From Corallococcus sp. NCRR (GTDB lineage: Bacteria > Myxococcota > Myxococcia > Myxococcales > Myxococcaceae), in the NCBI RefSeq assembly GCF_026965535.1, contig NZ_CP114039.1, positions 2,914,001-2,978,000 on the forward strand: a stretch of 64,000 nt of DNA, read 5' to 3'. Below are positions 45,148 to 60,867 of this stretch, one piece after another. The notes beneath the pieces were generated by a model that was not told the DNA's origin, ran no database searches, and saw only the letters and a list, made by a program, of their open reading frames with translations. Each line of letters opens with the position of its first letter. Position 1 is the first letter of the stretch. The translations under genes and the position numbers were made by a program.

Positions 45148-46178
45148 GCGCCATGGCCTCTCCCGCGCTCATCGCGCAAGGCTACCGGCGCGCGCGGGTC
45201 GTCACGCGCCACCACGCCAAGAGCTTCTTCTTCGCGTCGTACCTCCTCTTCGGACAGCGGCGGAAGGCGGCCTTCGCGCTGTATGCCTTCTGCCGGCGGC
45301 TGGATGACCTGGTGGACGCGGGCGAGAGCGCGCTGCCGGGCGAGGCGCCCATGGCCCTGGCGATGCGCCTGGCCCGGGCTCGTGAGCGCGTGGCGGAGGT
45401 GTACCTGCCGCTGCCGGAGCTGGCCTCGAAGGAGCTGGGACCGCCGTCCGCGCGGCAGCCCTCCGCGGACGCGCCGTCGCCGTGGGACGCGAGCGAGTTC
45501 GCGGCGCTGCGCCACACCATCCACCACTACCGGATTCCGGAGCAGCCCTTCCAGGACCTCATCTCCGGCATGGAGATGGACCTGACGAAGGTGCGCTACG
45601 ACACGTGGGAGGAGCTGGACCTGTACTGCTACCGCGTCGCGGGCGTGGTCGGGTTGATGCTGACGCCGGTGCTGGGCTGCGAGGACACTCGCGCGGTGGA
45701 GCCGGCGGCGGACCTGGGCCGCGCGATGCAGCTCACCAACATCCTGCGCGACGTGCGCGAGGACCTGGAGCGCGGACGGGTGTATCTGCCCTCCGAGGAG
45801 CTGCGCGCCTTCGGCATCAGCGAGGACGACCTGCGCGCGGGCCGCGTGGACGCGAAGTGGCGCGACTTCATGCGCTTTCAAATCCAGCGCGCGCGGGCGT
45901 ACTACGCGCGGGCGGCGGCGGGCGTGCACTACCTCACCGGCTTTGGCAGCCAGCGCATGGTGCGGCTGATGGGCGCCATCTACGGCGACATCCTGCGCGA
46001 CATCGAGGCGCGGGATTACGACGTGTTCAGCGGCCGGGCCCACACGACGACGGGGCGCAAGCTGAAGCTGACGGCGACCGTGTTCCTGCGTCCCCGGGCC
46101 GCGCTGCCGGACGCGCCCCTGGCCCTGCCGTCCGCGCCGGTGCCGCTGTTGCCCACGGGCACGGGAGGCTCGCGATGA
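45144..46178 (+). CDS. crtB: Phytoene synthase
   Basis: 344 residues from ATG 45144 (a second Met at 45153 is possible). It joins two geranylgeranyl diphosphates head to head to give 15-cis-phytoene. HAKSFFFASYLLF, RRLDDLVDAGE (first Asp-rich motif near 48-55) and NILRDVREDLERGRVYLP (second Asp-rich motif) are diagnostic of squalene/phytoene synthases. The Ala/Pro-rich C-terminal extension is not part of the catalytic fold. It overlaps crtIa and crtD by 4 bases each. Confidence 0.93.
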   Translation: MSAMASPALIAQGYRRARVVTRHHAKSFFFASYLLFGQRRKAAFALYAFCRRLDDLVDAGESALPGEAPMALAMRLARARERVAEVYLPLPELASKELGPPSARQPSADAPSPWDASEFAALRHTIHHYRIPEQPFQDLISGMEMDLTKVRYDTWEELDLYCYRVAGVVGLMLTPVLGCEDTRAVEPAADLGRAMQLTNILRDVREDLERGRVYLPSEELRAFGISEDDLRAGRVDAKWRDFMRFQIQRARAYYARAAAGVHYLTGFGSQRMVRLMGAIYGDILRDIEARDYDVFSGRAHTTTGRKLKLTATVFLRPRAALPDAPLALPSAPVPLLPTGTGGSR

Positions 46179-47626
46179 AGGCCTCGCGCGTGGCGGTGAT
46201 TGGCGGCGGCATCGGTGGGCTGACGGCCGCGGGCCTCCTGGCGAAGGAGGGCCATGCGGTGACGCTGTTCGAGGGCAGCCCGTCCCTGGGCGGCAAGGCG
46301 CAGGCGGTGACGGTGGAGGGGCTCACGCTGGACACGGGCCCCACGCTGCTCACGTTGCCCGCGCTGGTGCGCGGCACCTTCGAGCAGCTGGGCGCGGTGG
46401 ACCTGCTGCCCCCGTTCACGGAGCTGGAGCCGCAGTGCACCTACCACTTCACGGACGGGTGCGGCTTCACGGCGTACAAGGACCTGGAGCGCATGGCGGA
46501 GAGCGCCGCGGAGCTGCGGCCCGTGGAGCGCAAGGGCGTGCACTCCTTCTACGCGGAGGCCGCGGCCATCTGGCGCGCGGCGGGCGAGCCCTACCTGGAG
46601 GCCCCCTTCGAGGGCATGGCCGGCTTCATGGCGCGCGTGGCCCGCCGGGGCATCGGCGCGATGCTGGCGGGGATGAAGCTGGACACGCTTCACGCGCTGG
46701 CGGCGAAGCACTTCCAGACGCACCACCTGCGCCAGTACGTGGGGCGCTTCGCCACCTACGCGGGCGGGTCGCCGTATGACTCCAGCGCGGCGTTCGCGCT
46801 CATCCCGCACATCGAGCATGCGTATGGCGTGCACCACGTGCGCGGCGGCATCGGCGCGCTGGTGGAGGCGCTGGGGCAGGCGGTGCGGCGGCTGGGCGTG
46901 ACGGTGCACCTGGACACGCGCGCGCGCTTCGAGCGCATCACCGAGGGCTACCGCGTGGAGCCGGTCGCGGAGGTGTTCGACAGCGTGGTGGTGAACGCGG
47001 ATCCGCTGGCGTCGCTGCGCCGGGAGTCGGAGCCGCTGTCGCTGTCCGGCTTCGTGCTGCTCCTGGAGGTGGAGGGGCGCACGGCGGTGCCGCACCACGC
47101 GGTGATGTTCGGCGGGGACTACCGCAAGGAGTTCGACGAGCTCTTCGCGGGCCAGCTCGCCACGGACCCCACGGTGTATGTCTGCAACCCGTCCGCCACG
47201 GATTCGAGCATGGCGCCGCCGGGCCGCACGGGCTTGTTCGTGATGGTGAACGCGCCGGCCATGCCGCTGGAGGAGGGCAGGGCGGAGCAGGCCCGGCGTG
47301 ATTGGGAAGCCAGCGCGGAGCGCGTGCGCGAGCAGATGTTCGAGAAGCTCGTGCGGCACTACCCGGCGTTGAAGGGGCGCGTGCGCGTGGTGGGGCAGCG
47401 CTCGCCGGTGGACCTGGCGGCGCGCGGGGCTCCGGGCGGTTCCATCTACGGCTTCCTGCCGCATGGCCGCTTCGGTCCGTTCCGCAGGCCGCGCATCCGG
47501 GGCGGCACGCCGGGGCTGTTCTTCGCGGGCGGTGGCACGCATCCGGGCGGCGGGGTTCCGCTGGTGATGCTGTCGGGCCGGTTCGCGGCCCAGATGGCGT
47601 CCGCGCACCTGCGGGAGGTCGCATGA
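46175..47626 (+). CDS. crtD: CrtD-type carotenoid desaturase
   Basis: 483 residues from ATG 46175. VAVIGGGIGGLTAAGLL binds FAD, SPSLGGKAQAV and TGPTLLTLPAL follow as in the CrtI/CrtD family, and the C-terminal GLFFAGGGTHPGGGVPLVMLSGR is the usual FAD-end signature with the GGGTHPGGG variant typical of CrtD. Fourth in the operon, before crtC, as in M. xanthus, where it desaturates the C-3,4 position of hydroxylated carotenoids. The exact substrate is inferred. It overlaps neighbours by 4 bases on both sides. Confidence 0.87.
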   Translation: MKASRVAVIGGGIGGLTAAGLLAKEGHAVTLFEGSPSLGGKAQAVTVEGLTLDTGPTLLTLPALVRGTFEQLGAVDLLPPFTELEPQCTYHFTDGCGFTAYKDLERMAESAAELRPVERKGVHSFYAEAAAIWRAAGEPYLEAPFEGMAGFMARVARRGIGAMLAGMKLDTLHALAAKHFQTHHLRQYVGRFATYAGGSPYDSSAAFALIPHIEHAYGVHHVRGGIGALVEALGQAVRRLGVTVHLDTRARFERITEGYRVEPVAEVFDSVVVNADPLASLRRESEPLSLSGFVLLLEVEGRTAVPHHAVMFGGDYRKEFDELFAGQLATDPTVYVCNPSATDSSMAPPGRTGLFVMVNAPAMPLEEGRAEQARRDWEASAERVREQMFEKLVRHYPALKGRVRVVGQRSPVDLAARGAPGGSIYGFLPHGRFGPFRRPRIRGGTPGLFFAGGGTHPGGGVPLVMLSGRFAAQMASAHLREVA

Positions 47627-48582
47627 AGTCCGTCCTCGCGCAGAACCTCCTGTCCGGCGCGGCGGAGTCGTGCGCGCTGCCCGCGCTGCCGGACATGGCG
47701 GGGGCGTACCGCTGGTTCTACGCGGACGTGACCGCCGGGCCGTACAGCGCGGTGTGCATCTTCATGCTGGGGTCGTTGTTCTCCCCGCGTTACTCCGTCG
47801 CTGCGCGGCGGGGAGGACATCCGCTGGCGTACAGCGCGGTGAACTTCGCGCTCTACCACCAGGGTGTGCGCAAGTTGTGGGTGCTGAGCGAGTACCCGCG
47901 CGTGGAGTTGCAGGGGCCGGGACGGCTGCGCATCGGCCGCTCCACGTTGACGCACGCGGTGGATGGCACGGTGCGCATGGACGTGGATGACGGGACGGCG
48001 CCGTGGGGCCGCCCGGTGCGCGCCAGCCTGACGTTGCGTCCGCTGACCGGGCGGGGCCCGGAGGTGCAGCTCATGCCGGGCCTGCCGCATTACTGGCAGC
48101 CCCTGGCGCCCCGGGCGGAGGCCCGGCTGGAGGTGTCCACGCTGGGCGTGAGCGCGGAGGGCATGGGCTACCACGACACGAACCACGGCCAGGAGCTGCT
48201 GGGCGCGCGGCTGTCCGGCTGGCACTGGGCGCGCACGCACCACGCGAACCACACGGTGGTGGACTACCACCTGCCGGACGGCGTGGCGCCGGTGCGCATG
48301 GTGGCGGGGGCGAATGGCGTGGTGTGCGAGCGCGGCCCGAACCCCGAGGCGCGTCCCACGAGCCTGACGGGCTGGGGGCTGCGCGTCCCCGCGAAGATGC
48401 ACACGGGCAACGAGGTGGTGGGCGCGCCGCGCCTGCTGGAGTCGTCGCCCTTCTACGCGCGGCTGGAGTCGAGGCGGGACGCGCTGGACACGATGGGAGA
48501 GGTGGCGGACTTCCGCCGCTTCCATTCCCCGTTCATCCGCTGGATGGCGCATTTCCGCACGCGCCTGGGGAGGACGGCATGA
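47623..48582 (+). CDS. crtC: Carotenoid 1,2-hydratase CrtC
   Basis: 319 residues from ATG 47623. It adds water to the end of lycopene/neurosporene-type carotenoids, giving the 1-hydroxyl later decorated with sugar. Family stretches include GAYRWFYADV, GSLFSPRYS, YHDTNHGQEL and LSGWHWARTHHANHTVVDY (in part). His, Asp and Trp clusters in these stretches are conserved in the family. The order crtD-crtC and the 4-base overlaps match the M. xanthus carB operon. Confidence 0.9.
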   Translation: MKSVLAQNLLSGAAESCALPALPDMAGAYRWFYADVTAGPYSAVCIFMLGSLFSPRYSVAARRGGHPLAYSAVNFALYHQGVRKLWVLSEYPRVELQGPGRLRIGRSTLTHAVDGTVRMDVDDGTAPWGRPVRASLTLRPLTGRGPEVQLMPGLPHYWQPLAPRAEARLEVSTLGVSAEGMGYHDTNHGQELLGARLSGWHWARTHHANHTVVDYHLPDGVAPVRMVAGANGVVCERGPNPEARPTSLTGWGLRVPAKMHTGNEVVGAPRLLESSPFYARLESRRDALDTMGEVADFRRFHSPFIRWMAHFRTRLGRTA

Positions 48583-49697
48583 ACGCGCTCGGCTTCTTCA
48601 CGCTCGGGTGGACGGTGATGGCCGGTGGCTTCAGCGCGGTGGCGCTGGCGCGGCTGTATCGCCGTGCGCCCGTGACGGCCGGGGGCGCGCTGCCCTCCGT
48701 GCTGCTCCTGCGCCCCGTGGACGCGCCCACGCCGCTGGAGCTGGACAACCTGGAGCTCCCCATCGACTACGCGGGGCCGCTGGAGCAGGTGGTGCTGTCT
48801 CCGTACCGGCCGCGCCTGGCCGAGGGCGTGCGCTGGCTTCCGAGCGACCCCGTGTGTCCCAACCGCAAGGTGGGCCACCTGCTCTACGCGCTGGAGACGC
48901 TCGAGGTTCGCGGGCGGGTGGTGCTCGCGGTGGACGCGGACGTGGCGGTGACGGGCGCGCTGGTGGAGGGCCTCGCCGCTCCGCTCGTGGCCGGCGCCGC
49001 CTTGAGCACCGCTGCTCCCACGCCTGTTGGCGCGGTGGACGCGGCGGGCCGCGCGATGGCGGGGCTGCTTCGCTACACGCATCACAGCTTCCGCGCGCTG
49101 CACGCGATGAGCGCGGGCGCGCAGGCCGTTTGCGGCAAGGCGCTCGGGCTGTCACCGCGCGCGGCGGAGGAGCTGGCCGGACTGTCGGACCACATCGGCG
49201 AGGACCTGGAGCTGGCGAAGCGGCTTCACGCGCGGGGACTGGACGTGGCGCTGAGCCCCGCGCCCGCCTGGGTGCCTGTCGCCAACGGGACGTCCTGGCG
49301 CGTGCCGCTGGAGCGCTTCACGCGCTGGATGCAGGTGCTCGCGAGCCACCGGCCCGGCCTGTATCCCACCGTGCCGCTGCTCTTCACGCCCACCGTGCCG
49401 CTGCTGCTGCTCGCCGCGTGGCTCCATGAGGTCACCGTATGGCTCGCGGTGGCGGCGCTCGTCGCGGTGCGCACGTCGCTGTCGCTGCGCCTCGCGGCGC
49501 TGAGCCGCGTGCCCTCGGAGGCGGACCGGGGCCACGCGCTGACGGATTGGATCCAGGGAGAGCTCCTGCTGCTCGCGGCCTTCGTGGCCTCGCTGACGCG
49601 GCAGGGAAGGGTGACCTGGCGCGGCCATACCTACGCGCTGGAAGCTGGGGGACGCATGATTCGGGTGGCGCCGCGGTGGAGTGGAGGCCCGGGATGA
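48579..49697 (+). CDS. Membrane glycosyltransferase, probable carotenoid glucosylation
   Basis: 372 residues from ATG 48579. A family 2/21 (ceramide-glucosyltransferase-like) enzyme: an N-terminal helix, VLLLRPVDAP, VLAVDADVAVTG with the metal-binding Asp-Ala-Asp, and ERFTRWMQV matching the RXXRW motif. Two to three C-terminal membrane helices follow (FTPTVPLLLLAAWL). M. xanthus makes carotenoid glucoside esters (myxobacton type), and this operon's orf6 position suits the sugar-transfer step, though that role is inferred. It overlaps crtC and crtYc by 4 bases. Confidence 0.82.
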   Translation: MNALGFFTLGWTVMAGGFSAVALARLYRRAPVTAGGALPSVLLLRPVDAPTPLELDNLELPIDYAGPLEQVVLSPYRPRLAEGVRWLPSDPVCPNRKVGHLLYALETLEVRGRVVLAVDADVAVTGALVEGLAAPLVAGAALSTAAPTPVGAVDAAGRAMAGLLRYTHHSFRALHAMSAGAQAVCGKALGLSPRAAEELAGLSDHIGEDLELAKRLHARGLDVALSPAPAWVPVANGTSWRVPLERFTRWMQVLASHRPGLYPTVPLLFTPTVPLLLLAAWLHEVTVWLAVAALVAVRTSLSLRLAALSRVPSEADRGHALTDWIQGELLLLAAFVASLTRQGRVTWRGHTYALEAGGRMIRVAPRWSGGPG

Positions 49698-50077
49698 CCT
49701 ACGCGCGCTTCCTGGGGCTCTTCGTCGTCCTGCCCATCCTGTTCCTGCTCGTGCGCTACCGCCGCACGCTGTCGTGGCGGGGGCTCGCGCCCATGGGCCT
49801 GCTGCTCATCATCGTCTACGCGGCCACGTCGCCGTGGGACAACATGGCCGTGAAGTGGGGCCTGTGGGGCTTCGACCCGGAGCGCATCTGGGGCGTGAAG
49901 CTGGGCTACCTGCCGCTGGAGGAGTACCTCTTCTTCGGACTCCAGACGCTGCTCGTGGGCCTGTGGGCGCGCGACCGGCTGGAGCGCGTGCTGGCGAAGA
50001 AGCCACAGCCCGTGTCTCACGAGCAGAAGTCCGTCCGCGCGCAGCGGACCCTGGAGCCCTCCGAGGTGTCGCCATGA
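49694..50077 (+). CDS. crtYc: Lycopene cyclase subunit CrtYc
   Basis: 127 residues from ATG 49694. A small three-helix membrane protein with LGYLPLEEYLFF, whose PxEE motif is the catalytic signature of heterodimeric lycopene cyclases. WGFDPERIWG precedes it, as in CrtYc. It pairs with CrtYd to cyclise one end of the carotenoid chain. The C-terminal 30 residues are basic and soluble. It overlaps the neighbours by 4 bases. Confidence 0.9.
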   Translation: MTYARFLGLFVVLPILFLLVRYRRTLSWRGLAPMGLLLIIVYAATSPWDNMAVKWGLWGFDPERIWGVKLGYLPLEEYLFFGLQTLLVGLWARDRLERVLAKKPQPVSHEQKSVRAQRTLEPSEVSP

Positions 50078-50421
50078 TGGAGACGCGCTGGGCGTACCTC
50101 ATCCACCTGCTGGCCTGGACGCTGCCGGTGATTGCCATTCAACTGGCGGCGCTCGTGATGCACTACAAGGCCCGCTCGGGCGAGGTGCTGCGCGCGGTGC
50201 TGCCCCCGGCGCTCGTCATCGGCGTGTACCTGTCCATCGCGGACCACCTGGCCATCTCCACCGGCATCTGGAACTTCGGTGAGGGCCGCCACGTGGGTGT
50301 GTATATCGGCGCCGTGCCGCTGGAGGAGGTCCTCTTCTTCCTCATCACGAGCGTGCTGGTGTCGCTGGGGCTCGCGCTCTTCACGGCGCTCCTGCGGCTC
50401 CGGGAGGCTCGGGCGTCTTGA
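50074..50421 (+). CDS. crtYd: Lycopene cyclase subunit CrtYd
   Basis: 115 residues from ATG 50074 (a second ATG follows at once). Three membrane helices; GIWNFGEGRHVGVYIGAVPLEEVLFF contains the second PxEE motif of the heterodimeric cyclase. The partner is CrtYc, encoded just upstream with an ATGA overlap. Its TGA overlaps the TTG start of the next gene. Confidence 0.9.
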   Translation: MMETRWAYLIHLLAWTLPVIAIQLAALVMHYKARSGEVLRAVLPPALVIGVYLSIADHLAISTGIWNFGEGRHVGVYIGAVPLEEVLFFLITSVLVSLGLALFTALLRLREARAS

Positions 50422-51095
50422 TTCGCGCGGCCAAGGGTGGGCCCTTCGGGTGGGCGGTGGACCGGTACATCGGGTGGAAGGTCCGCTCGACGTTCCGGGG
50501 CCTGTGGGTGCGCGGCGAGCTGCCCGCCGACGGGGTGGGCCGGCTCGTCTACCTGAACCACTCCAACTGGTGGGACGGCTTCGTGCTGCACCAGCTCTGC
50601 CAGGTGGCGGGCTGGGACGGCTACTGCCTCATGGACGAGGAGAACCTGCGCCGCTACCCCTTCCACACGAAGATGGGCGCCTTCAGCATCCGCAGGCAGG
50701 ACGCGATGTCGTCCCTGTCCTCGCTGCGCTACGCGAAGGAATTGCTGCGCAAGCCGGGCGCCGCCGTGTGTGTCTTTCCGGAAGGGGAGCACCGGCCCTT
50801 CGGCGTCCACCCGCTGAAGCTGGAGCGCGGGGTGGAGCTGCTGGCCCGCGCGGCGAAGGCGGAGTGCGTGCCCATCGCCATCCGCTATGCCTTCTTCGAG
50901 CACGAGCGGCCGGACGTGCTGCTGGAGGTGGGCGAGGTCCACGAGGCCGGGCCGCTCGCGCGCTTCCAGAGCGGGCTGGAGGCGGTGGTGCGGCGGGTGT
51001 CCGGGGCCACGAGCCTGGAGGGCTTCACCCAGAAGGTGTCCGGAGCGAAGGGCGTGGCGGAGCGCTGGGACCGCGCGCGAGGCCTGGGGCCATGA
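50418..51095 (+). CDS. Lysophospholipid-acyltransferase-like protein, probable carotenoid acylation
   Basis: 225 residues from TTG 50418, chosen because TTGA overlaps the crtYd stop (50419-50421). NHSNWWDGF is the NHxxxxD acyltransferase motif, and CVFPEGEHRPFG is the FPEG motif of the PlsC family. It has no clear membrane helix. As orf9 of the carB-type operon it is well placed to esterify the carotenoid glucoside with a fatty acid, giving the glycoside esters of myxobacteria; this role is inferred. Its last 40 or so bases reappear in the rearranged copy at 53733. Confidence 0.85.
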   Translation: MIRAAKGGPFGWAVDRYIGWKVRSTFRGLWVRGELPADGVGRLVYLNHSNWWDGFVLHQLCQVAGWDGYCLMDEENLRRYPFHTKMGAFSIRRQDAMSSLSSLRYAKELLRKPGAAVCVFPEGEHRPFGVHPLKLERGVELLARAAKAECVPIAIRYAFFEHERPDVLLEVGEVHEAGPLARFQSGLEAVVRRVSGATSLEGFTQKVSGAKGVAERWDRARGLGP

Positions 51096-51952
51096 GCCTG
51101 CGCATCCGCACCATCGCCCGGCTCACGGGCATCCGGGAGGCCACCCTGCGCGCCTGGGAACGCCGCCATGGCTTCCCGCGCCCGGAGCGCAGTGAGAACA
51201 ACTACCGCGTCTATTCACGCGACGAGGTGGAGGCCGTCCGCCGGGTGGCGAAGCTGATGGAGGAGGGCCTCTCGGTGAGCGAGGCCATCGCCCAGGTGCG
51301 AGACGAGCCCCGGACGGACGTCCCGCCGGAGGCGCGGCACCTGGAGCGCTTCTGGGCGGCGGTGATGGTGCTGGACTCGGAGGGCGCGGACGCGGCGCTG
51401 TCCGCGGCCCAGGTGGGGCTGGACGCGGCCACGTATTGCGACACGGTCCTCCTCCCGCTGCTGCGCGAGATGGCCAGTCGCCTGGACGTGGCGCGTGAGC
51501 ACATGGCGTCCGCGCTGGTGCGGCAGCGGCTGCGCATGTTGCTGGCGGGGATGGAGCGCGTGGGCGACGGGCCCCGGGGGCTCCTGGCCTGTCCGGCGAA
51601 AGACCACCACGAGGGGGGGCTGCTCGCGCTGGGCGTGCACCTGAAGGCGCGGGGCTGGCGGGTGACGCTGCTGGGCGCGGACACGCCCTCGGAGGCGTTG
51701 CAGGGGGCATGCACGCAGGTGCGCCCGGACCTGGTGGCGCTGTCGTTCATCCGCCGCCGGGATGCGGACGACTTCGTCGCGGTGTTGTCCGAAGCGATGC
51801 ATGCGTGCGCGCCCGCTCCCGTGGTGGTAGGCGGGCCCGGCGCGCGTGAGCACTTGAAGACGCTGTTCACCCTGGGCGCGCAATACGCCGAGTCCGCGGA
51901 GGAGCTCATCGCCGTCTGGCATCAGGCGCGAAACGCGCAGAACCGACCGTGA
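51092..51952 (+). CDS. carA: CarA, MerR-type repressor of the carotenoid operon
   Basis: 286 residues from ATG 51092. The MerR DNA-binding domain spans 1-75 (IARLTGIREATLRAWERRHG). The middle and C-terminal domain is cobalamin-binding-like: D171-H-H173-E-G-G176 fits the cobalt-ligating DxHxxG motif. The light-sensing Trp found in CarH is Glu126 here, while Glu136-His137 remain. In M. xanthus CarA represses carB in the dark, is relieved by the antirepressor CarS, and acts without needing vitamin B12, fitting the missing Trp. Followed by carH after 12 bases. Confidence 0.93.
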   Translation: MSLRIRTIARLTGIREATLRAWERRHGFPRPERSENNYRVYSRDEVEAVRRVAKLMEEGLSVSEAIAQVRDEPRTDVPPEARHLERFWAAVMVLDSEGADAALSAAQVGLDAATYCDTVLLPLLREMASRLDVAREHMASALVRQRLRMLLAGMERVGDGPRGLLACPAKDHHEGGLLALGVHLKARGWRVTLLGADTPSEALQGACTQVRPDLVALSFIRRRDADDFVAVLSEAMHACAPAPVVVGGPGAREHLKTLFTLGAQYAESAEELIAVWHQARNAQNRP

Positions 51953-51964
51953 AGCACGCACACC

Positions 51965-52867
51965 ATGGCTGAGCGCACCTATCGCATCCACATCGCCGCG
52001 GAGCTGTCAGGGGTCCGCGTGGAGCTCATCCGCGCCTGGGAGCGCCGCTACGGGGTGCTCGAGCCGGAGCGCACGCCCTCGGGCTACCGCGTCTACACCG
52101 ACCGGGACGTGGCCCTGCTCAAGCGGCTCAAGGCGCTGACGGACGAAGGGGTGTCCATCAGCGAGGCAGCGAAGCTGGTGCCCCAGCTGCGCGCGGAGCT
52201 GGACGCGGCGCCGTCCCCGTCCGCCGAGGGCGCCGATGCGCGGACCGGGGCGCAGCCGGAGTCGTGGCGCGCGGCGGTGATGGCCGCGGCCGAGGCGTAT
52301 GATCAGCCCCGCGTCGTCCGCGTCCTGGACGAGGTGCTGGCGGCGCTGCCGCCCCTGAAGGCCTTCGAGGACGTGCTGGTGCCGGTGCAGCGCGAGGTGG
52401 GCGAGCGCTGGCACGCGGGGACGTTGACGGTGGCGCAGGAGCACCTGGTGACGCAGGTGGTGCGCGAGCGGCTGGTGAGCCTGCTGCACGGCGCCCCCCG
52501 GGGAGGACGCAAGCACGCGGTGCTGGCGTGCTTCCCGGAGGAGGAGCACGAGATTGGCCTGCTGGGAGTGGCGCTGAGGCTGCGCCACGCGGGCGTGCGG
52601 GTGACGCTGCTGGGGCAGCGCGTGCCGGCGGAGGGGCTGGGCGAGACGGTGGCCCGCGCAAAGCCAGACGTGGTGGGTCTGTCGGCGGTGACGAACCGGG
52701 GCGCCACGGTGTTCGAGGACGTCCTCGAACGCATCATGGATGCGCTGCCCAAGGGCCTGCCCCTCTGGGTGGGAGGCCCCGCCGCCCAGGCGCACGCGGA
52801 CATCTGCGAACGCCTGGGCGTGAGGCTCTTCAGTCACGAGGACGACTGGACGCGGATGGTGGGCTGA
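51965..52867 (+). CDS. carH: CarH, B12-dependent photoreceptor repressor
   Basis: 300 residues from ATG 51965. An N-terminal MerR domain (1-70) and a four-helix plus Rossmann B12-binding module. Trp149 and Glu159-His160 form the Wx9EH capping motif, and E193-E-H195-E-I-G198 the cobalt-ligand motif, so every residue known to be needed for adenosylcobalamin light sensing is present. CarH tetramers hold the operator in the dark; light breaks the Co-C bond, the tetramer falls apart and carotenoid genes turn on. Last gene of the operon. Confidence 0.95.
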   Translation: MAERTYRIHIAAELSGVRVELIRAWERRYGVLEPERTPSGYRVYTDRDVALLKRLKALTDEGVSISEAAKLVPQLRAELDAAPSPSAEGADARTGAQPESWRAAVMAAAEAYDQPRVVRVLDEVLAALPPLKAFEDVLVPVQREVGERWHAGTLTVAQEHLVTQVVRERLVSLLHGAPRGGRKHAVLACFPEEEHEIGLLGVALRLRHAGVRVTLLGQRVPAEGLGETVARAKPDVVGLSAVTNRGATVFEDVLERIMDALPKGLPLWVGGPAAQAHADICERLGVRLFSHEDDWTRMVG

Positions 52868-52880
52868 GTTTCCGCGTGCG

Positions 52881-53342
52881 TCAGATGCAGAACGGCGGAA
52901 GGCCTTGCGCCAGCGCGACGGTGTCATCGAGGGCATCTCCGATGCCGGGCAGGACCCCCGCCGATGGAATCGTGGTCAACAGCGAGGTGATCACGCTCAG
53001 GAGCGGCTGGAGGACATTGAGCGCGAGCGAGGTGTTGATATTGGTGAGGTCCGTGTTCAGCGCGGTCCCTAGGGTGCCGAGGGTCGCGAGCTCCGACGCG
53101 GTGAGCGCGGCGTTCGCGTTCGCGATGGCGCCGAGGGCGGAAGCGATACCCGGGATGCTCGGTGCTGCGACCACCGGCACTGCCGCGATGTAGCTGGTCT
53201 GGGCCGCGGACACGGCGGCGTTCGCCGCCTGGATGGCCACGCCCGCGGTGGAGTCCGCGTTGATGCACTGGGCCTGCGCGGGGACGACGTAGAGTGCCAC
53301 GGCGAGGACGACGGCGGACAACCAGTTCATGGACGTTTTCAT
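52881..53342 (-). CDS. Small secreted Ala-rich protein with terminal cysteines (paralogue 1)
   Basis: 153 residues. A signal peptide covers about 1-25 (VVLAVALYVVPAQAQ). The mature part is Ala-, Thr- and Leu-rich and amphipathic, with exactly two Cys: one right after the cleavage site (residue 26) and one at the penultimate position. A disulfide could link the two ends. The family was not recognised. The gene is convergent with carH (13 bases apart), the reverse of the operon. Its leader, about 310 bases, is nearly identical to that of the paralogue at 54349. Confidence 0.72.
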   Translation of the reverse strand: MKTSMNWLSAVVLAVALYVVPAQAQCINADSTAGVAIQAANAAVSAAQTSYIAAVPVVAAPSIPGIASALGAIANANAALTASELATLGTLGTALNTDLTNINTSLALNVLQPLLSVITSLLTTIPSAGVLPGIGDALDDTVALAQGLPPFCI

Positions 53343-53653
53343 GGGGGGCTTTCTCTCGTGTGAAGACAGACCCCCGCCGTCCTCCGGCGACCGCGGGACG
53401 GGGGTCCGCCTGCCTGGGACAGGCAGGGACTGGGTTGAGATGGGATTGCTGCCGGAGGAGTGAAGTCACAGTGACTTCCAATCTCTCAGACGTCAATCAA
53501 CCCCAGACCTCAGGGCAGGTGTCTGTTCGTGTCTCGGTCCGCCCTCCGCCATGGAGATTATTTTCCAGTTTCAGTGATGTGTCAGGGGCTTCACGGTATT
53601 GGATGTCTGTCCAATCCGGGAGCGAACCTGGCCGCCATCCTGGACCCAGGTCC
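53272..53653. repeat. Direct repeat copy 1: signal peptide plus leader region
   Basis: About 380 bases that recur at 54743-55123, an offset of 1471, with roughly 95 percent identity by eye in the leader part. It covers the signal-peptide codons and about 310 bases upstream of the small secreted protein. Inside are the 8-bp hairpin CCTGCCTG-GGA-CAGGCAGG (53409-53427) and the palindrome GAAGTCAC-A-GTGACTTC (53462-53478). Confidence 0.85.
53409..53427 (-). promoter_or_regulatory. Conserved leader hairpin
   Basis: CCTGCCTG (53409-53416) and CAGGCAGG (53420-53427) pair perfectly. The identical hairpin lies at 54880-54898. Both are about 67-85 bases upstream of the start of a small secreted protein gene. 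Confidence 0.5.
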
Positions 53654-53699
53654 AAGACGGCGCTGGCTTCCGCGGTGCGGTAACGGAGCAGGAAGGCCA
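53653..53699 (-). pseudogene. Relic of an immunity-like gene, adjoining leader copy 1
   Basis: On the minus strand this reads AFLLRYRTAEA...VLDLGPGW, matching internal (AAFLLRYRTAEAKAVLEE) and terminal (WDLDPE) parts of the immunity-like gene at 56024, with the middle removed. It ends at the same GGACCTGG as the relic at 55121. No start or stop of its own. Confidence 0.6.
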
Positions 53700-54336
53700 T
53701 GGAGCGCGGCGTGGAGTTGCTGGCCCGCGCGGCGTGGCGGAGCGCTGGGACCGCGCGCGAGGCCTGGGGCCATGAGCTTGCGCATCCGCACCATCGCCCG
53801 GCTCACGGGCATCCGCGAGGCCACCCTGCGCGCCTGGGAGCGCCGCCATGGCTTCCCGCGTCCGGAGCGCAGCGAGAACAACTACCGCGTCTATTCACGC
53901 GACGAGGTGGAGGCCGTCCGCCGGGTGGCGAAGTGGATGGAGGAGGGCCTCTCGGTGAGCGAGGCCATCGCCCAGGTGCGAGACGAGCCCCGGACGGACG
54001 TCCCGCCAGAGGCGCGGCACCTGGAGCGCTTCTGGGCGGCGGTGATGGTGTTGGACTCGGAGGGCGCGGACGCGGCGCTGTCCGCGGCCCAGGTGGGGCT
54101 GGACGCGGCCACGTATTGCGACACGGTCCTCCTCCCGCTGCTGCGCGAGATGGCCAGTCGCCTGGACGTGGCGCGCGAGCACATGGCGTCCGCGCTGCGA
54201 GGTGCTGGCGGCGCTGCCTGGATGCGCTGCCCTCTGGGTGGGAGGCCCCGCCGCCCAGGCGCATGCGGACGTCTGCGAATGCCTGGGCGTGAGGCTCTTC
54301 AGTCACGAGGACGACTGGACGCGGATGGTGGGCTGA
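53700..54336 (+). pseudogene. Truncated carA copy fused to fragments of the acyltransferase gene and carH
   Basis: Bases 53700-53732 match the acyltransferase gene near 50820-50853; then about 200 bases are missing; 53733-54195 match 51053-51515 (its end and the first 141 codons of carA, ATG at 53772) at about 98 percent; then short pieces of carH (near 52331 and 52737-52867), with internal deletions, to 54336. The carA part keeps the whole MerR DNA-binding domain. Nearly all differences are silent (8 silent against one Leu-to-Trp change), so the copy seems to have evolved under selection before it was broken. The frame then shifts and runs on to 54440. It may be dead or make a short DNA-binding fragment. 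Confidence 0.85.
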
Positions 54337-54348
54337 AGCCCCTATGCC

Positions 54349-54813
54349 TCATTCACAGATGGGCGGGAGCGCCTGGATCAGGGCGAGGGTATCGGAGAGG
54401 GTCGTTCCGACGGTGGCGGGGAGGGTGGTGGGAGTCGTAATCCCCATCAGGAGATTCTGGATGAAGGCTTGGAGGGTCTGGGTGACAGAGGTCAGATTGT
54501 TGTTGATCGCGGAGAGGTCCGTGAAGGCGGCGCTTGGCAGGAGAACGAGGGTCGCGCCTTCGGACGCGGCGATCCCGGTGACCGCATTCAGATTGGCGGT
54601 GGCGGCCTGGAGGATCTGGAGGAGGTTCAGGGTAGCAGCTGCCGTCGCCGTGGCGTTGGCGCTGGTCTGGGTTGCGTCAAAGGCGGCATTCGCCGCCTGG
54701 ATGGCGACCCCCAGCGTGGAACTCAGATTCGCGCATTGTTGCGCCTGCGCGGGGACGACGTAGAGCGCCACGGCGAGGACGACGGCGGACAAGCCGTTGA
54801 TGGACATTTTCAT
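54349..54813 (-). CDS. Small secreted Ala-rich protein with terminal cysteines (paralogue 2)
   Basis: 154 residues. Signal peptide 1-25 is almost identical to paralogue 1. The mature part has diverged strongly, yet keeps the features: Ala/Thr/Leu-rich helices, VAIQAANAA near the N-terminus, an LxALPPxC-like end, and exactly two Cys, one just after the signal and one at the penultimate residue. Family not recognised. It sits leftward between the carA relic and the immunity-like genes. The contrast between conserved leader/signal and divergent mature protein suggests diversification. Confidence 0.72.
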   Translation of the reverse strand: MKMSINGLSAVVLAVALYVVPAQAQQCANLSSTLGVAIQAANAAFDATQTSANATATAAATLNLLQILQAATANLNAVTGIAASEGATLVLLPSAAFTDLSAINNNLTSVTQTLQAFIQNLLMGITTPTTLPATVGTTLSDTLALIQALPPICE

Positions 54814-55123
54814 GGGGGGCTTTCTCTCGTGTGAAGACAGACCCCCGCCGTCCTCCGGCGACCGCGGAACGGGGGTCCGCCTGCCTGGGACAGGCAGGGA
54901 CTGGGTTGAGATGGGATTGCTGCCGGAGGAGTGGAGTCATAGTGACTTTCAATCTCTCAGACGTCAATCAACCCCAGACCTCAGGGCAGGTCTCTGTTCT
55001 TGTTTCAGTCCGCCCTCCGCCATGGAGATTATTTTCCATTTCAGTAGTGTGTCAGGGCCTCCAGGACATTGGATGTCTGTCCAATCCGGGAGCGAACCTG
55101 GCCGCCATCCTGGACCCAGGTCC
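54743..55123. repeat. Direct repeat copy 2: signal peptide plus leader region
   Basis: Second copy of 53272-53653. It keeps the CCTGCCTG/CAGGCAGG hairpin (54880-54898) unchanged. The 17-base palindrome of copy 1 has three changes here; each keeps base pairing, as G-U, only in a plus-strand RNA. Confidence 0.85.
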
Positions 55124-55163
55124 CAGGTGCCTTCGTCCCACCCTTTCAACGTCTGTTCCTGGG
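55121..55163 (-). pseudogene. Relic of an immunity-like gene, adjoining leader copy 2
   Basis: Reads KGWDEGTWDLGPG on the minus strand, matching the C-terminal KGWEEGVWDLDPE of the immunity-like gene at 56024. The match stops in the middle of the last codons, where leader copy 2 begins. The rest of the gene is gone. Confidence 0.6.
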
Positions 55164-55206
55164 GTGGATGAGCATTGAGAGGGGCCGAGACGCATGGGGC
55201 CCGCTG
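55164..55206. other. Short intergenic gap
   Basis: 43 bases between a relic and the next immunity-like gene stop. Nothing recognised. Confidence 0.4.
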
Positions 55207-55557
55207 CTATTCCGGGTCCAGTGCCCAGGTGCCCTCCTCCCAGCGCTTCAGTGCCTGCCCTGCCTTGAACGGCACGAGTCCTTCGCCCCTGGCTGCCTCC
55301 ATCAAGACCTCGCGTGCCTCATGCGTTCGGTAGCGGAGCAGGTAGGCCGCAGCCATGACTCGCACATCCATCCTGGGATGACTGAAAAGCACCGTGAGCG
55401 CCTCGCGGCCTGTATTCCCAAGAGCCCGGAGTTGCTCGAAAGCGGAGATGTATTTCTTTGCGTGTCGGTTTCCGGCCTTCGCGTCGCCCTGCCAGATCGC
55501 GTCGGTCTGGGCGGCGACGTTGTCCGCGAATAGCCTGACAAGTGTATCGAACCTCAC
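55207..55557 (-). CDS. HEAT-like (DUF2019-like) small protein, probable immunity protein
   Basis: 116 residues from GTG 55557; a longer TTG at 55584 is open, but the GTG matches the N-terminus of its paralogue at 56024 position by position and has GGAAGAGG upstream. Helical repeats: FADNVAAQTDAIWQ, HPRMDVRVMAAAYLLRYRTHEA, FKAGQALKRWEEGTWALDPE. The HEAT-like layout and terminal WxxGTWxLDPE resemble DUF2019 proteins common in myxobacteria. Three such genes lie downstream of a SitA-like toxin, so it is probably a cognate or orphan immunity protein; this is inferred. Confidence 0.72.
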   Translation of the reverse strand: MRFDTLVRLFADNVAAQTDAIWQGDAKAGNRHAKKYISAFEQLRALGNTGREALTVLFSHPRMDVRVMAAAYLLRYRTHEAREVLMEAARGEGLVPFKAGQALKRWEEGTWALDPE

Positions 55558-55629
55558 TCCGACCCCTCTTCCTGCTGCCTCCAACTGCGCGGGAGCGTCC
55601 TCGCAGTCGACCTATCAATTGGAACGGCT

Positions 55630-56004
55630 CTATTCTTCCGGAGGAAGCGTTCCGTCCTTCCACGCGCGCAGGGTCATTGCCGCACTCACACTCAGCATTG
55701 TTGGCGGCGGCTCCGCCAACAGGGCAAGTGCACGTTCTGCCTCGCTGGGCGCGAAGCCCAGGGCGGCTGTTGCTGCCCAATACCGCGTCCCTGGCTCCGG
55801 ATCAGTCAGCAATGCCAGCAGGCGCTTCTCCGCATCGGGTCCACGGGTACGCAGGTCTTTCCTGACGGCTGCCGCGAGACGGTAGTTCTTGTTCGCAGCC
55901 CGAGTGTCGCGCGCATTCAGTAAGCGCCCGTGCTTGGCTGAAACCTCGCGAAAATGCGCAATCAACTCTTCTGTCCCTAGCACCTTGAGGTCCTTGGACT
56001 TCAT
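55630..56004 (-). CDS. HEAT-like small protein, divergent immunity candidate
   Basis: 124 residues from ATG 56004. Helical, with GTRYWAATAALGFAPSEAERALALL and LSVSAAMTLRAWKDGTLPPEE, a layout like its neighbours' HEAT-like repeats and the same WKDGT-type ending, but with low identity to them. It lies between two DUF2019-like copies, 19 bases after the frameshifted one. Perhaps an orphan immunity protein against a related toxin; not proven. Confidence 0.65.
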   Translation of the reverse strand: MKSKDLKVLGTEELIAHFREVSAKHGRLLNARDTRAANKNYRLAAAVRKDLRTRGPDAEKRLLALLTDPEPGTRYWAATAALGFAPSEAERALALLAEPPPTMLSVSAAMTLRAWKDGTLPPEE

Positions 56005-56023
56005 GAGCAAGCGGGGCCCGCCT

Positions 56024-56373
56024 CTATTCGGGATCCAGGTCCCAGACGCCTTCTTCCCACCCTTTCAATGTCTGTTGAGCGCCAAAAGCAACGAGCCCCT
56101 CACCTTTTGCGGCCTCCTCCAACACCGCTTTGGCTTCGGCGGTGCGGTAACGGAGCAGGAAGGCGGCAGCCGTGGCCCTCACGTCCATCCTGGGATGCTT
56201 CAAGAGGATGCAGAGTGCCTCTCTTCCTTCGTCTCCTCGGGCACGAAGTTCATCGAAAGCAGCGATGTATCGGTCGCCGTGCTTGTCCTCGGGGTCCGCA
56301 CCCACTGGAAGATCGCGTCCGTCTGTGCCGCGACATTCTCAGCAAACTCCCTGACCAGACCCTCTAGAATCAT
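56024..56373 (-). CDS. DUF2019-like immunity protein gene, one-base frameshift
   Basis: Starts at ATG 56373, whose ATGA overlaps the toxin stop (56370-56372), so it is translationally coupled to the toxin as cognate immunity genes are. Codons 1-24 read MILEGLVREFAENVAAQTDA and IFQW, then one base is missing in the C-run at 56301-56303; after restoring it the frame GADPEDKHGDRYIAAF continues to the stop. The repaired length, 116 residues, equals the paralogue at 55207 exactly. Without repair, only the 93-codon downstream frame is open. It is the likely SitI partner of the toxin; frameshift or sequencing error decides whether the strain protects itself. Confidence 0.75.
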
Positions 56374-57722
56374 CGCCAGATTCCCTTCTTGATGTTTTCA
56401 ATGGCGAGCAAGCCGAAGTCGCGTTGGGCTGTGTACGACTGCGTGCTCAGCCACTCTCGAATGGTAAGGACGCGTGAACGAGTGATGAGCGGATACTTCC
56501 TGGAGTAGAACGCGCTGACCAGGTCGTGGAGCGTCTTGTTCAGGGCGACGACGTTCTCGGTGTTGTGTATCGCTTCCGGACCGAACCGGCGAACATTCCC
56601 CTCGGTCTGCTCGACGACGTGGTGCCACTCCCTGTTCGTGCCCGCGCTCCCTCGCGCCTTCGTCATGCCCCGGTGTGTTTGCCACGCCTTGTATCCAGTG
56701 GAAGCGCTCCCACCGCCGTGCGTTCCATTCGATGACATGGCCACGGCGCCCGGCGCGAGGCCGACCGTGAAGCCGTCAGCGGCGATGGTAACCGTCTCGA
56801 CCTGCCCCACGGCGGCGTAGACCACCCCGGCCTCCGCCTCGGCCCGGACCGCGGCCTGGGCTGCCCCTGGCAGGCCCGGGAGCTTTGCCCCCAGCGTCGC
56901 CCCCGTGCTTCCAATGGCCGCCGTCGCCAGCATCACGAAAGCCCGCGCCGCCTGCCGGCCCATCACCTTGCCGAATCGCTCTCCCGCCCCGCGCAGTTCG
57001 TCGAACGTCAGCGCCGCGTCCGACTCCGCCATCAGGTGCCGGAAGCCCTGGATGAGCGCCCAGAACGTGTCGATGCCCACGTAGGCGATGAGCCCTGCCG
57101 AGATCACCGCCGCCACGCCCTTCGTCGCGGGCTCAGGCACCGTCCAGAGCAGCGCGTACGTGGCCGCTGTCCACAGAGCGGCCTGCATCAGCGCCTCGGG
57201 ATTCGCCATGTCCTTCAGTGCGTCCCACAGCTCTTCCAGCACCGCCCCCTTCGCCATCGCGAGCGCCAGGGCGAAGCGCGCGTCCCCAGAGACAACTGGG
57301 ATCTCCTTCAGCAGAGCCAGACAGTCACCGGCGCGTCCGGTCCGGCCACACCAGCGCAAGTAGGCCCGGGTCAGCTCCACGTCTGGCTGCGCCTGCTCGG
57401 AGGACAGGTGCTCCCCCGGCCCTAGCGGCGTGATGCGGCGGCGCTGCACATCCATCAAGTACGAACCGCTCCGGGGCTCCACCTCGAAGAGGCGCCGGGC
57501 GGCCTCCTGGGCCCTCGGTGACAACCGAAGCCCCGGGGCCAGCCGCGCCACGGCCTCCTTCAGCGCCCCCGCATCCAGCGGGACCGGCCGGGCCGTTCCA
57601 TCCGCACGAGGCACATGGACGACAGGCGCACCGCGCCCCGTGTCGAGCCGGACGGCCTTCGTCGCACTGCTACACCCGACCAGCGCCAAGAACAGGGACA
57701 GCACCAGCCATGAACGACGCAT
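56370..57722 (-). CDS. sitA: SitA-type lipoprotein toxin with C-terminal HNH-like nuclease
   Basis: 450 residues from ATG 57722. MRRSWLVLSLFLALVGC is a lipoprotein signal; Cys17 is lipidated. Residues about 170-300 contain hydrophobic helices (ALWTAATYALLWTVPE; VAAVISAGLIAYVGI). The C-terminal 88 residues (363-450), EWHHVVEQ...IHNTENVVALN...LHDLVSAF, fit an HNH/His-Me-type nuclease with His367-His368, Asn390 and His399. SitA toxins of M. xanthus are lipoproteins passed between kin by TraA/B outer-membrane exchange and killing those without SitI immunity; this resembles the SitA5/SitA6 type. It is 25 bases after hsdR and overlaps an immunity gene. Confidence 0.85.
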   Translation of the reverse strand: MRRSWLVLSLFLALVGCSSATKAVRLDTGRGAPVVHVPRADGTARPVPLDAGALKEAVARLAPGLRLSPRAQEAARRLFEVEPRSGSYLMDVQRRRITPLGPGEHLSSEQAQPDVELTRAYLRWCGRTGRAGDCLALLKEIPVVSGDARFALALAMAKGAVLEELWDALKDMANPEALMQAALWTAATYALLWTVPEPATKGVAAVISAGLIAYVGIDTFWALIQGFRHLMAESDAALTFDELRGAGERFGKVMGRQAARAFVMLATAAIGSTGATLGAKLPGLPGAAQAAVRAEAEAGVVYAAVGQVETVTIAADGFTVGLAPGAVAMSSNGTHGGGSASTGYKAWQTHRGMTKARGSAGTNREWHHVVEQTEGNVRRFGPEAIHNTENVVALNKTLHDLVSAFYSRKYPLITRSRVLTIREWLSTQSYTAQRDFGLLAIENIKKGIWR

Positions 57723-57747
57723 CAGCAGCTCGCTCCGTTGCCGTCCG

Positions 57748-60700
57748 TCACGTGTCGCTTGCCCCTCTGGCGCGCAGGGCCTCCCACAGCATCGAATGGT
57801 TGAGCAGGATGTCCTTGATGCCATCCCGGACCGTCTTGGAGTCCAACGCCTGCTTGCTCATCAGCGCATGCGCGTCGAGCGCGGCGATGATGGCGCTCAT
57901 GATCTCCTCCTGGAGGTCAGGCGAGTTCGCGAATTGTTCCTTCGAGTTGTTCGCGGCCTGTTGAGCCAGTGTGGGGGACTCCAGCAACTTCCCCAGCAAG
58001 ACATTGTTCACGTAGACGAGCTTGTCCTGATCCGACAACTCGCCTTCGAACAGCGTGTTCACCCGCTCTATGATCTCATTGAGTCGCGCGCGCTCCCTTT
58101 CCTGCACGCTGCCCGCGCCTGCCTCCGTCGCCGGGTAGAGCGTCGGCTTCTCGCCCACGGCGAGCAGCATCGGGGCCTTGGCCTTCTCCTTCAGGGTGTA
58201 GTGCGTGAGCTTGACCTTCGAGAGGTCGATGTCCTCGCGCTCGCGCCCGAACTCGAGGAGCGGCAACAGGCGCTTGTAGAAGATGGCCCGCTTCTCAAGA
58301 GCGGTGCTGCCGTAGTCGAAGATCTGCGAGAGGAAGGTATAGAGCCGCAGGAACGCGCCCATGTCCGACTTGAAGAGGACGAGCGCGTCCAGCTCCGCCT
58401 TGGCGTCCTTGCGAGCCTTCGCGTCGGAGCTTTCATTCGCGGCCCTGAAGGACGCCTGCGCGGCCTTGAAGCGCTTCATCAGCCGGTCCAGCACCGGCTC
58501 GATGGCCTTCACGAGGTCGCTCTGCTTCGAGCCGGGGTTCAGCTCCACTCCCACCACGCGCTCGACCTCGAAGTCATCGTAGTAGCCAGCGGCGTCGAGC
58601 TTCGCGCGCAAGTTGAACACCACGTTCGGGTCGGTCGTGGCTGCCAGCTCCGCCGTCGTGTAGTAGGTCTTGAAGGCTTCGAGGATGTCGGCCGCGTCGT
58701 TGACGAAATCGACGATGTACGTCGTGTCCTTGCCCGGGTGCGCCCGGTTCAGCCGGGAGAGGGTCTGGACCGCCTGGATCCCCGCCAGACGCTTGTCCAC
58801 GTACATGCCGCAGAGCAGCGGCTGGTCGAAGCCAGTCTGGAACTTGTTGGCGACGAGCAACACCTGGTACTCGCCCTCCTTGAACGCCTCCCGGATGTCG
58901 CGCCCTTTCAGGCGGGGATTCAGAGTCCGGCTGTTCTCTGTGAATGGCTCCGGACCGGAGTCCGGGTCCACGACTTCTCCGGAGAACGCTACGAGCGTCC
59001 CCATCTTGTAGCCGTGCTCCTGGATGTACTTCTCGATGGCGAGCTGCCAGCGCACGGCCTCCAGCCGGCTGGCGACGACGACCATCGCCTTGGCCTTGCC
59101 GTCGAGCAGCGGAGCCACGTGCGCGCGGTAGTGCTCCACCACGACCCGCACCTTCTCCGCGATGTTGTAGGGGTGGAGCCTCACCCAGCCCATGATCCGC
59201 TTCAGCGCGGCGCTCTTCTCCACCTCCTTCTCGTCCACCGCCTTGCTTTCGTGGGCGAGCTTGAAGGCCAGACTATAGGGCGTGTAGTTCTTCAGCACGT
59301 CGAGGATGAACTTCTCCTCGATGGCCTGCCGCATGGAGTAGACGTGGAAGGGCACCGGGACGTTGTCGGGCGCGGGCTTGCGCGACGGATCCGGCCGGGT
59401 GCCGAAGATCTCCAGGGTCTTGCTCTTCGGCGTAGCAGTGAACGCGACGAACGTGATGCCCGAGTCATTGGCGCGTGAGGACATCTGCGCCGTGAGGAGG
59501 TCCTCGCTGCTCACCTCGCCGCCGTCGTTGAGCTCCGCCAGCTCCGCGGGGGAGAGGACGGCCTTGAGCTTGGAGGCCGTCTCTCCCGTCTGGGAGCTGT
59601 GGGCCTCGTCGGCGATGACCGCGAAGCGCTTGCCCTGCGTCGCGGCCAGCCGCCGCACTTCCTCGATGGCGAAGGGGAACGTCTGGACGGTGCAGACGAC
59701 GACCTTCTTCTTGCCGGAGAGCGCCTCGGCGAGCTTGCCGCTCTTGCTTCCGTCCTTGTTGGTGATGGTCGCCACCACGCCGGTCGTGCGCTCGAAGTCG
59801 AAGATGGCCTCCTGGAGCTGGGAGTCGATGACGTTGCGGTCGGAGACGACCAGCACCGTGTCGAAGACCTTCTTGTGCTGGGCGTCGTGCAGCTCGGCCA
59901 GGAAGTGCGCCGTCCAGGCGATGGAGTTCGTCTTCCCTGAACCGGCCGAGTGCTGGACGAGGTACTTCGTGCCGGGCCCGTCCGCGAGCACGGCGGCCTG
60001 GAGCTTTCGGGTGACGTCCAACTGGTGGTAGCGCGGGAAGAGGAGCCGGGTGAGCTGCTTCCTGGCGTCACGCTGGCCAATCAGGTAGCGCCCCAGGATT
60101 TCGAGCCAGCTCTCGCGCGCCCAGACCTGCTCCCACAGGTAGGCGGTGCGGTGGCCGCCGGATGGGTTCACGGGGTTGCCCGCGCCGCCGTCGTCGCCCT
60201 GGTTGAAGGGCAGGAAACTGGTCGCCGGGCCATCGAGCCGCGTCACCATGTGGACTTCGCTGTTGCTCACGGCGAAGTGCACCAGCGCTCCGCTCGGGAA
60301 GGAGAGCAGCGGTTCGGCGGCCTGTCCCTTGGGATGCGGCAGGCGGTCGAAGCGGTACTGGTCGATGGCGTCCGTGACGCTCTGGGTGAAGTCGGTCTTC
60401 AGCTCGGCCGTCGCAATAGGCACTCCGTTGAGGAAGAGCACCAAGTCGATGTTGTTCTCGTTGTGGACGGAGTAGTGCACCTGCCGCACCACGCGCAGCC
60501 GGTTGGCTTCGTAGCGCGCGAGGATGTCGGGGTTGATGGCGAGCGCGGGTTTGAACTCGGCCAGCTTGAGCGGCTGTTTGAGGCCCAGCAGCTCGATGCC
60601 GTGGCGCAGGACGTCGAGCGTGCCGCGCTGATTGAGTTGGTCGCGCAGGCGGTTGAGCAGCGTATCCCTGGCATTGCCGCCGTGGTTCTTCGTCAGCGTC

Positions 60701-60867
60701 TCCCAGGCCTTGGGTTGGGTGGTCTGCACCCAGGCGAGGACGTCGGCGGGGAAGAGCGCGCGTGGACGGTCGTAGTCGGTGGCGTCTCGGTCCGAGTGGA
60801 GCCAACCGTGAGACGCGAGGTGGGCGCAGATCTCGGACTCGAAGCTGATTTCCTTGTGGAGGCTCAC
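57748..60867 (-). CDS. hsdR: Type I restriction endonuclease subunit R
   Basis: 1039 residues from ATG 60867; the ATGA overlaps the hsdS stop. The N-terminal nuclease domain has LVLFLNGVPIATAELKTDF (PD-ExK: Asp, Glu-x-Lys). The motor holds HSAGSGKTNS (Walker A), VIADEAHSSQ (DEAH box) and VAFTATPKSK. A C-terminal helical part contacts the M-S core. It pumps unmodified DNA and cuts it at distance in an ATP-dependent way. The gene is intact at family length. It ends 25 bases before the SitA start, so the toxin may be read from the same transcript. Confidence 0.95.
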   Translation of the reverse strand: MSLHKEISFESEICAHLASHGWLHSDRDATDYDRPRALFPADVLAWVQTTQPKAWETLTKNHGGNARDTLLNRLRDQLNQRGTLDVLRHGIELLGLKQPLKLAEFKPALAINPDILARYEANRLRVVRQVHYSVHNENNIDLVLFLNGVPIATAELKTDFTQSVTDAIDQYRFDRLPHPKGQAAEPLLSFPSGALVHFAVSNSEVHMVTRLDGPATSFLPFNQGDDGGAGNPVNPSGGHRTAYLWEQVWARESWLEILGRYLIGQRDARKQLTRLLFPRYHQLDVTRKLQAAVLADGPGTKYLVQHSAGSGKTNSIAWTAHFLAELHDAQHKKVFDTVLVVSDRNVIDSQLQEAIFDFERTTGVVATITNKDGSKSGKLAEALSGKKKVVVCTVQTFPFAIEEVRRLAATQGKRFAVIADEAHSSQTGETASKLKAVLSPAELAELNDGGEVSSEDLLTAQMSSRANDSGITFVAFTATPKSKTLEIFGTRPDPSRKPAPDNVPVPFHVYSMRQAIEEKFILDVLKNYTPYSLAFKLAHESKAVDEKEVEKSAALKRIMGWVRLHPYNIAEKVRVVVEHYRAHVAPLLDGKAKAMVVVASRLEAVRWQLAIEKYIQEHGYKMGTLVAFSGEVVDPDSGPEPFTENSRTLNPRLKGRDIREAFKEGEYQVLLVANKFQTGFDQPLLCGMYVDKRLAGIQAVQTLSRLNRAHPGKDTTYIVDFVNDAADILEAFKTYYTTAELAATTDPNVVFNLRAKLDAAGYYDDFEVERVVGVELNPGSKQSDLVKAIEPVLDRLMKRFKAAQASFRAANESSDAKARKDAKAELDALVLFKSDMGAFLRLYTFLSQIFDYGSTALEKRAIFYKRLLPLLEFGREREDIDLSKVKLTHYTLKEKAKAPMLLAVGEKPTLYPATEAGAGSVQERERARLNEIIERVNTLFEGELSDQDKLVYVNNVLLGKLLESPTLAQQAANNSKEQFANSPDLQEEIMSAIIAALDAHALMSKQALDSKTVRDGIKDILLNHSMLWEALRARGASDT

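Follow-up and report, generated by a model that had tools for sequence, protein, structure and literature searches.

Displacement of an old toxin module by an incoming one has been proposed for the effector-immunity arrays of Vibrio cholerae (PMC5361080). The course proposed for these T6SS clusters, in which the new module enters via a homologous anchor, the old module is shifted downstream and immunity genes accumulate, resembles the one considered below for a locus of Corallococcus sp. NCRR. In the T6SS case the anchor is the region that precedes the effector-immunity module, whereas here the proposed anchor is a core light-regulator operon beside the island, and pieces of this operon are left behind. 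Orphan cdi loci of Acinetobacter are likewise described as displaced toxin-immunity remnants in a 3' position, for which illegitimate recombination was proposed (PMC6336857), but those remnants are pieces of toxin and immunity genes, and the pieces found here come from an unrelated operon. Partial duplications arising by transformation have been documented in Streptococcus pneumoniae (PMC3784515). The window resembles the sitAI toxin-immunity loci of myxobacteria in having a SitA5-family toxin gene beside small genes; such loci are often described as lying on prophages or other mobile DNA (PMC5562445, PMC8546572, PMC10047993), whereas the one described here sits behind the carotenoid operon. 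The CarA and CarH repressors are encoded by tandem genes in the carotenoid cluster, an arrangement that was reported for Corallococcus (PMC8156234, PMC9304148) and was also found here. The accessible text of these CarA/CarH papers makes no mention of an extra, broken carA-carH such as the one present at this locus. Neither this copy nor a sitA island beside the carotenoid operon was reported in the literature searched, which included few subscription papers.

The window, that is, the whole stretch of 64,000 nucleotides that was analysed, corresponds to positions 2914001-2978000 of the 9,787,125-base genome. At the 3' end of its carotenoid operon, the acyltransferase gene, carA and carH follow one another with intact reading frames (Table 1). 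As the preliminary description of this DNA had stated, the stretch 53700-54336 is a repeat of acyltransferase, carA and carH sequence that includes the whole MerR domain. The main block of this repeat (51051-51517 vs 53731-54197) was identical at 457 of 467 positions (97.9%), included carA codons 1-142 and was far above chance, with an E value printed as 0.0. Relative to the intact unit, the copy is disrupted by four internal deletions of 199, 812, 386, and 13 bp (1,410 bp in total), where three had been described before. Microhomology at the deletion junctions was 4 bases at the first and 3 bases at the last, and 0 bases at the middle two. The 222-aa open reading frame of the copy (53772-54440) runs on after carA' in a frame other than that of carH. 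When the whole genome was searched with the carA stretch as a protein query, two strong matches were obtained, namely carA and the copy, and in the DNA search with the same stretch the only matches elsewhere were short ones (28 and 41 bases).

Table 1. Features of the carotenoid operon end, the broken copy and the adjoining toxin island (positions are those of the window).
Feature	Position	Strand	Basis and remarks
Acyltransferase gene, intact carotenoid operon	50418..51095	+	ORF; PF01553 E 8.6e-11; origin of acylT' piece
carA, intact, 286 aa, MerR + B12-binding domains	51092..51952	+	ORF and family searches
carH, intact, 300 aa	51965..52867	+	ORF and family searches
small1, secreted-protein gene of unit 1	52881..53342	-	Convergent with carH; signal peptide judged by eye
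Upstream region of small1	53347..53650		53272-53653 vs 54743-55123, 94.5% over 382 columns
DUF2019 (HEAT-like) gene remnant, 47 bp	53651..53697	-	89% identical to 56118-56164; unit 1 ends here and meets unit 2
acylT' fragment	53700..53734	+	From 50821-50855 (33/35 identical); final 4 bases common to next piece
carA'	53772..54197	+	Codons 1-142; MerR domain kept; Leu55 to Trp
carH'	54198..54336	+	Three pieces, through stop codon: 52330-52350 vs 54198-54218 (21/21 identical), 52737-52750 vs 54219-54232 (14/14), 52764-52867 vs 54233-54336 (101/104)
small2	54349..54813	-	Diverged small1 allele, 53% aa identity; open frame intact
Upstream region of small2	54814..55123		Homologous to small1 upstream region
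DUF2019/HEAT-like gene 1	55207..55584	-	PF09450 E 2.9e-10
DUF2019/HEAT-like gene 2	55630..56010	-	PF09450 E 3.7e-12
DUF2019/HEAT-like gene 3	56024..56305	-	PF09450 E 1.1e-7
SitA5-family polymorphic lipoprotein toxin	56370..57725	-	NF050093 E 2.2e-103, 345 bits vs cut-off 160

The duplication had been described as ending at 54336, but the small gene for a secreted protein was found to be doubled too, together with the DNA upstream of it (52868-53653 vs 54337-55123). Two operon-end units are arranged head to tail; the left part of unit 2 is eroded, and its right end abuts the toxin island. Past unit 1, the 47-bp DUF2019 remnant is followed by the junction with acyltransferase DNA. Past unit 2 lie another DUF2019-like remnant, the three DUF2019 genes, and the SitA5 toxin gene. 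Other DUF2019 genes have left remnants at 53651-53697 and 55101-55157, which suggests that the array has turned over repeatedly.

Similarity between the two units was distributed as a sharp mosaic. The carH 3' end ahead of the small genes was identical at 104 of 107 positions; for this end and the upstream DNA, identity was for the most part 93-98%. The mature part of the small genes was 53-70% alike per 60-column block, the low blocks standing without a chance control, and the signal peptide and upstream DNA were 88-98% alike in blocks of the same width, after which the alignment drops at the DUF2019 remnants. small1 and small2 share nearly the same signal peptide and upstream DNA but differ greatly in the mature part, and they look like a polymorphic gene; nothing above cut-off was found for them in Pfam or NCBIfam. 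The small genes of five congeners were 80-90% identical to each other, and small1 and small2, 53% identical to each other, were each 36-44% identical to the six congener small genes compared. Such a distance between small1 and small2 does not fit the 10 base differences in 426 bases of carA, and a mosaic this sharp is not that of one duplication ageing evenly; alleles of two strains, or local replacement, would give it.

The SitA5 gene is adjoined by the three DUF2019 genes. Its product contains the SitA5 escort domain (NF050093), and its start codon was chosen within the ORF 56370-57824. The DUF2019 genes are putative immunity genes, as judged from their position and HEAT-like similarity. Similarity of the SitA5 cassette to three congeners (G001, G002, and G004) stops at about 57850, a point within the frame of a minus-strand ORF (57748-60867) that was named type I restriction-like from reading its sequence. 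By eye, DNA like the end of the restriction-like ORF also adjoins the SitA5 cassette in G004 and G007.

In the carA part of the copy, ten changed bases were located in nine codons, and a recount agreed with the earlier statement that eight of the nine are silent. The sole replacement is at codon 55 (CTG to TGG, Leu to Trp). Under neutrality, with the ten changes placed at random, approximately 29% are expected to be silent on average; in a simulation of 200,000 trials, one or no replacement codon occurred at a frequency of 2.5e-5, and a plain binomial test of the silent excess gave a P of about 3e-4. An excess of this kind is hard to obtain by neutral decay. Both of the two changes in the acyltransferase piece were silent as well, whereas the carH' piece showed the opposite trend to carA', with one silent and two replacement changes. 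Taken over carA and carH, these counts do not have the form of the neutral change since divergence that is looked for in a pseudogene. It looks as if most of the change in the copy accrued under selection, and we read the silent pattern as predating the break, in which case it would speak against long decay and not against present brokenness.

In a tree of 17 sequences (426 bases), the copy was sister to the carA of its own genome with an ultrafast bootstrap value of 100, and it is the closest relative of that gene among the sequences compared. The branch lengths were 0.0146 for the tip of the copy, 0.0116 for the tip of carA, and 0.0325 for their stem. When 15 differing positions were compared with 15 congeners, 5 were private to the copy, 2 were private to the functional gene, and 8 occurred with both states. 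The suggestion in the preliminary description that a functional allele diverged first and was broken later gains support from the silent excess, the similar tip lengths, the eight positions that are polymorphic in congeners, and the divergent small alleles between near-identical flanks.

A CarA search was performed with 96 genomes of the family, including that of the window, at one genome per species. Matches were found in 67 genomes, of which 59 had a match with an E value below 1e-45, and the genome of the window alone had two matches of this grade. Each of the 15 congeners had one CarA match. The search of the other 95 family genomes (one per species) brought up no relative with an intact second carA-carH, which had been named beforehand as an observation that would speak against a diverged allele.

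In the stretches compared, two of which cover only about 4 kb, DUF2019 or SitA5 was located downstream of carH in 7 of the 15 congeners. The DUF2019 match starts 10-22 bases past the carH end in G001, G002, G004, G005, and G007. In G003 and G014, carH is followed by a small gene and then by DUF2019, with SitA5 next in G003 and an early contig end in G014; in G012, a small gene follows carH, and there were no DUF2019 or SitA5 hits. In 3 of the 15 congeners (G001, G002, and G004), carH, DUF2019, and SitA5 are followed by a 5'-truncated carH 3' remnant of 83-87 bp, which lies 2.2-13 kb beyond carH and starts near carH position 817-821. The carH 3' remnants are located at L042:5033-5119, L040:15563-15648, and L044:4739-4821 in oriented coordinates. 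Beyond the remnant, G001 and G002 have a small gene of the type common among the congeners, and G004 has other DNA. In G002 and G004 the remnant was closest to the carH of its own genome, from which it differed at 4 and 3 of 87 positions, respectively; the remnant of G001 had 12 differences from its own carH. The junction shared by the three congeners suggests one old event that may have spread by recombination, and the nearness of the G002 and G004 remnants to their own carH suggests that homogenisation may have followed.

Considered jointly, these results make it probable that the copy is a dead remnant of an exchange between strains at the toxin island and not a working regulator. Two alleles of one stretch, comprising the acyltransferase end, carA, carH, the small secreted gene, its upstream DNA, and part of an immunity-like DUF2019 gene, would have diverged while functional, in two lineages that belonged to one species or to sister species. 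A strain with another version of the SitA5 island would have supplied DNA that entered via homology in the carotenoid operon (carA-carH), and the other end of this DNA would have closed without much homology. The former resident, from inside its acyltransferase gene, would have been shifted downstream with its own small gene and toxin island, so that unit 1 would represent the newcomer. The displaced acyltransferase-carA-carH part, being redundant, would then have lost 1,410 bp in the four deletions, and it is presumably no longer expressed.

Displacement fits the layout of the window, in which each unit has its own small gene. A 5'-truncated remnant of the presumed anchor runs into what would be the old downstream module, as the carH' stop codon is followed by small2; the same was seen in G001 and G002, and other DNA followed in G004. 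Several observations count against displacement. All three congener remnants have the same junction, and a single event may account for them. Without later gene conversion, an old displaced allele would not be expected to match the carH of its own genome best, as the remnants do in G002 and G004, and the G004 remnant is not followed by a small gene. In addition, the changes in carH' are unlike those in carA', two of the four deletion junctions lack microhomology, and other sitA5 loci do not as a rule carry core-gene remnants.

A plain tandem duplication in one lineage, with both carA-carH pairs functional for a long time before the second was broken and with no foreign DNA involved, would produce the head-to-tail order with its novel DUF2019/acyltransferase junction and the sister relation of the copy to its own carA; a silent bias is also expected if selection acted on both copies. 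However, the small genes differ far more than the flanks on either side of them, and none of the other 95 family genomes, congeners included, had two CarA-grade matches, which makes long retention of both pairs seem unlikely. We regard a duplication of this type as unlikely, and displacement by incoming DNA as the better account of the mosaic. The similar start of the remnants in three congeners might also be expected if an integrating element used the carH 3' end for attachment and the copy marked one boundary of that element. This is very improbable, given that the repeat in the window begins about 2 kb further upstream, in the acyltransferase gene, and that in G001 and G004 the 2.2-2.5 kb separating carH from the remnant consist largely of DUF2019, SitA5, and other DNA like that of the window.

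We consider it extremely unlikely that a truncated CarA' is made and competes at the carotenoid operator or acts as a CarS decoy. The N-terminal MerR-type DNA-binding domain is kept (PF13411 E 3e-14 in the 222-aa ORF), the frame is open over 222 aa, and the isolated N-terminal domain of Myxococcus xanthus CarA is described as holding the operator and CarS determinants (PMC8156234). In contrast, the C-terminal B12-binding/dimerisation half, through which CarA dimerises (PMC8156234), is missing: PF02310 was detected in CarA and was absent from the ORF of the copy, which leaves the carA sequence after codon 142. A consensus scan, a crude and weak test in GC-rich DNA, gave two promoter sites, both leftward and none rightward. 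Open frames of this sort are common, with 85 ORFs of at least 60 aa overlapping 46000-60000, and a second CarA-grade match was again restricted to this genome among the 96. Residue 55, Trp in the copy, was Leu in CarA of 20 of 20 distinct relatives (15 Corallococcus-group and 5 other myxobacterial genomes; ten genomes entered twice were counted once). This replacement was dropped as proof of a dead domain, since Trp is found at the aligned place in solved CarH (5c8d, 3whp), reportedly from Thermus (PMC8156234), and it need not unfold the domain. The light-blind competitor put forward in the preliminary description is thus unsupported, in view of the leftward-only promoter sites, the missing dimerisation half, Leu55 to Trp, and the fact that CarA itself is described as B12-independent (PMC9304148), so that being light-blind would not distinguish the copy from CarA. 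A regulatory role of CarA' appears improbable.

Local direct repeats were compared between 33 sitA5 stretches of 20 kb (13 from the own genome, covering all 19 matches, and 20 from G003, G013, and G007, chosen among the matches listed) and 40 evenly spaced control stretches (20 from the own genome, 13 from G003, 7 from G013, and none from G007). Repeats of at least 90% were found in 5 of the 33 sitA5 stretches and in 0 of the 40 controls (Fisher P 0.016), and those of at least 80% in 10 of 33 vs 7 of 40. By position, the five repeats of at least 90% were three sitA5 genes themselves (L094, L095, and L123), a 3.3-kb repeat in L118, and the present locus. On these counts, the idea that sitA5 loci in general contain fragments of adjacent core genes was rejected. 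The direct repeat in L118 (2-3335 and 4339-7680), near a sitA5 locus of G003, is up to 96.6% identical and contains ORFs of about 980 aa.

The locus provides a readable example of the exchange that myxobacterial toxin-immunity islands may undergo by recombination in the core genes beside them, in this case with fragments of a core regulatory operon remaining. An instability is predicted from the 467-bp direct repeat, since recombination of carA with carA' would remove 2,680 bp. This segment includes the remainder of carA, the whole of carH, and small1, and its loss would result in a cell without either intact repressor. Apart from the island exchange and this instability, the copy is an ordinary gene remnant. 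It is possible, though doubtful, that the carA-carH operon end acts as a homology port for swaps of kin-discrimination toxin islands in one Corallococcus clade. If this is true, exchange of social identity would drag along alleles and fragments of light-response repressors, and the operon would be left flanked by recombination-prone repeats.
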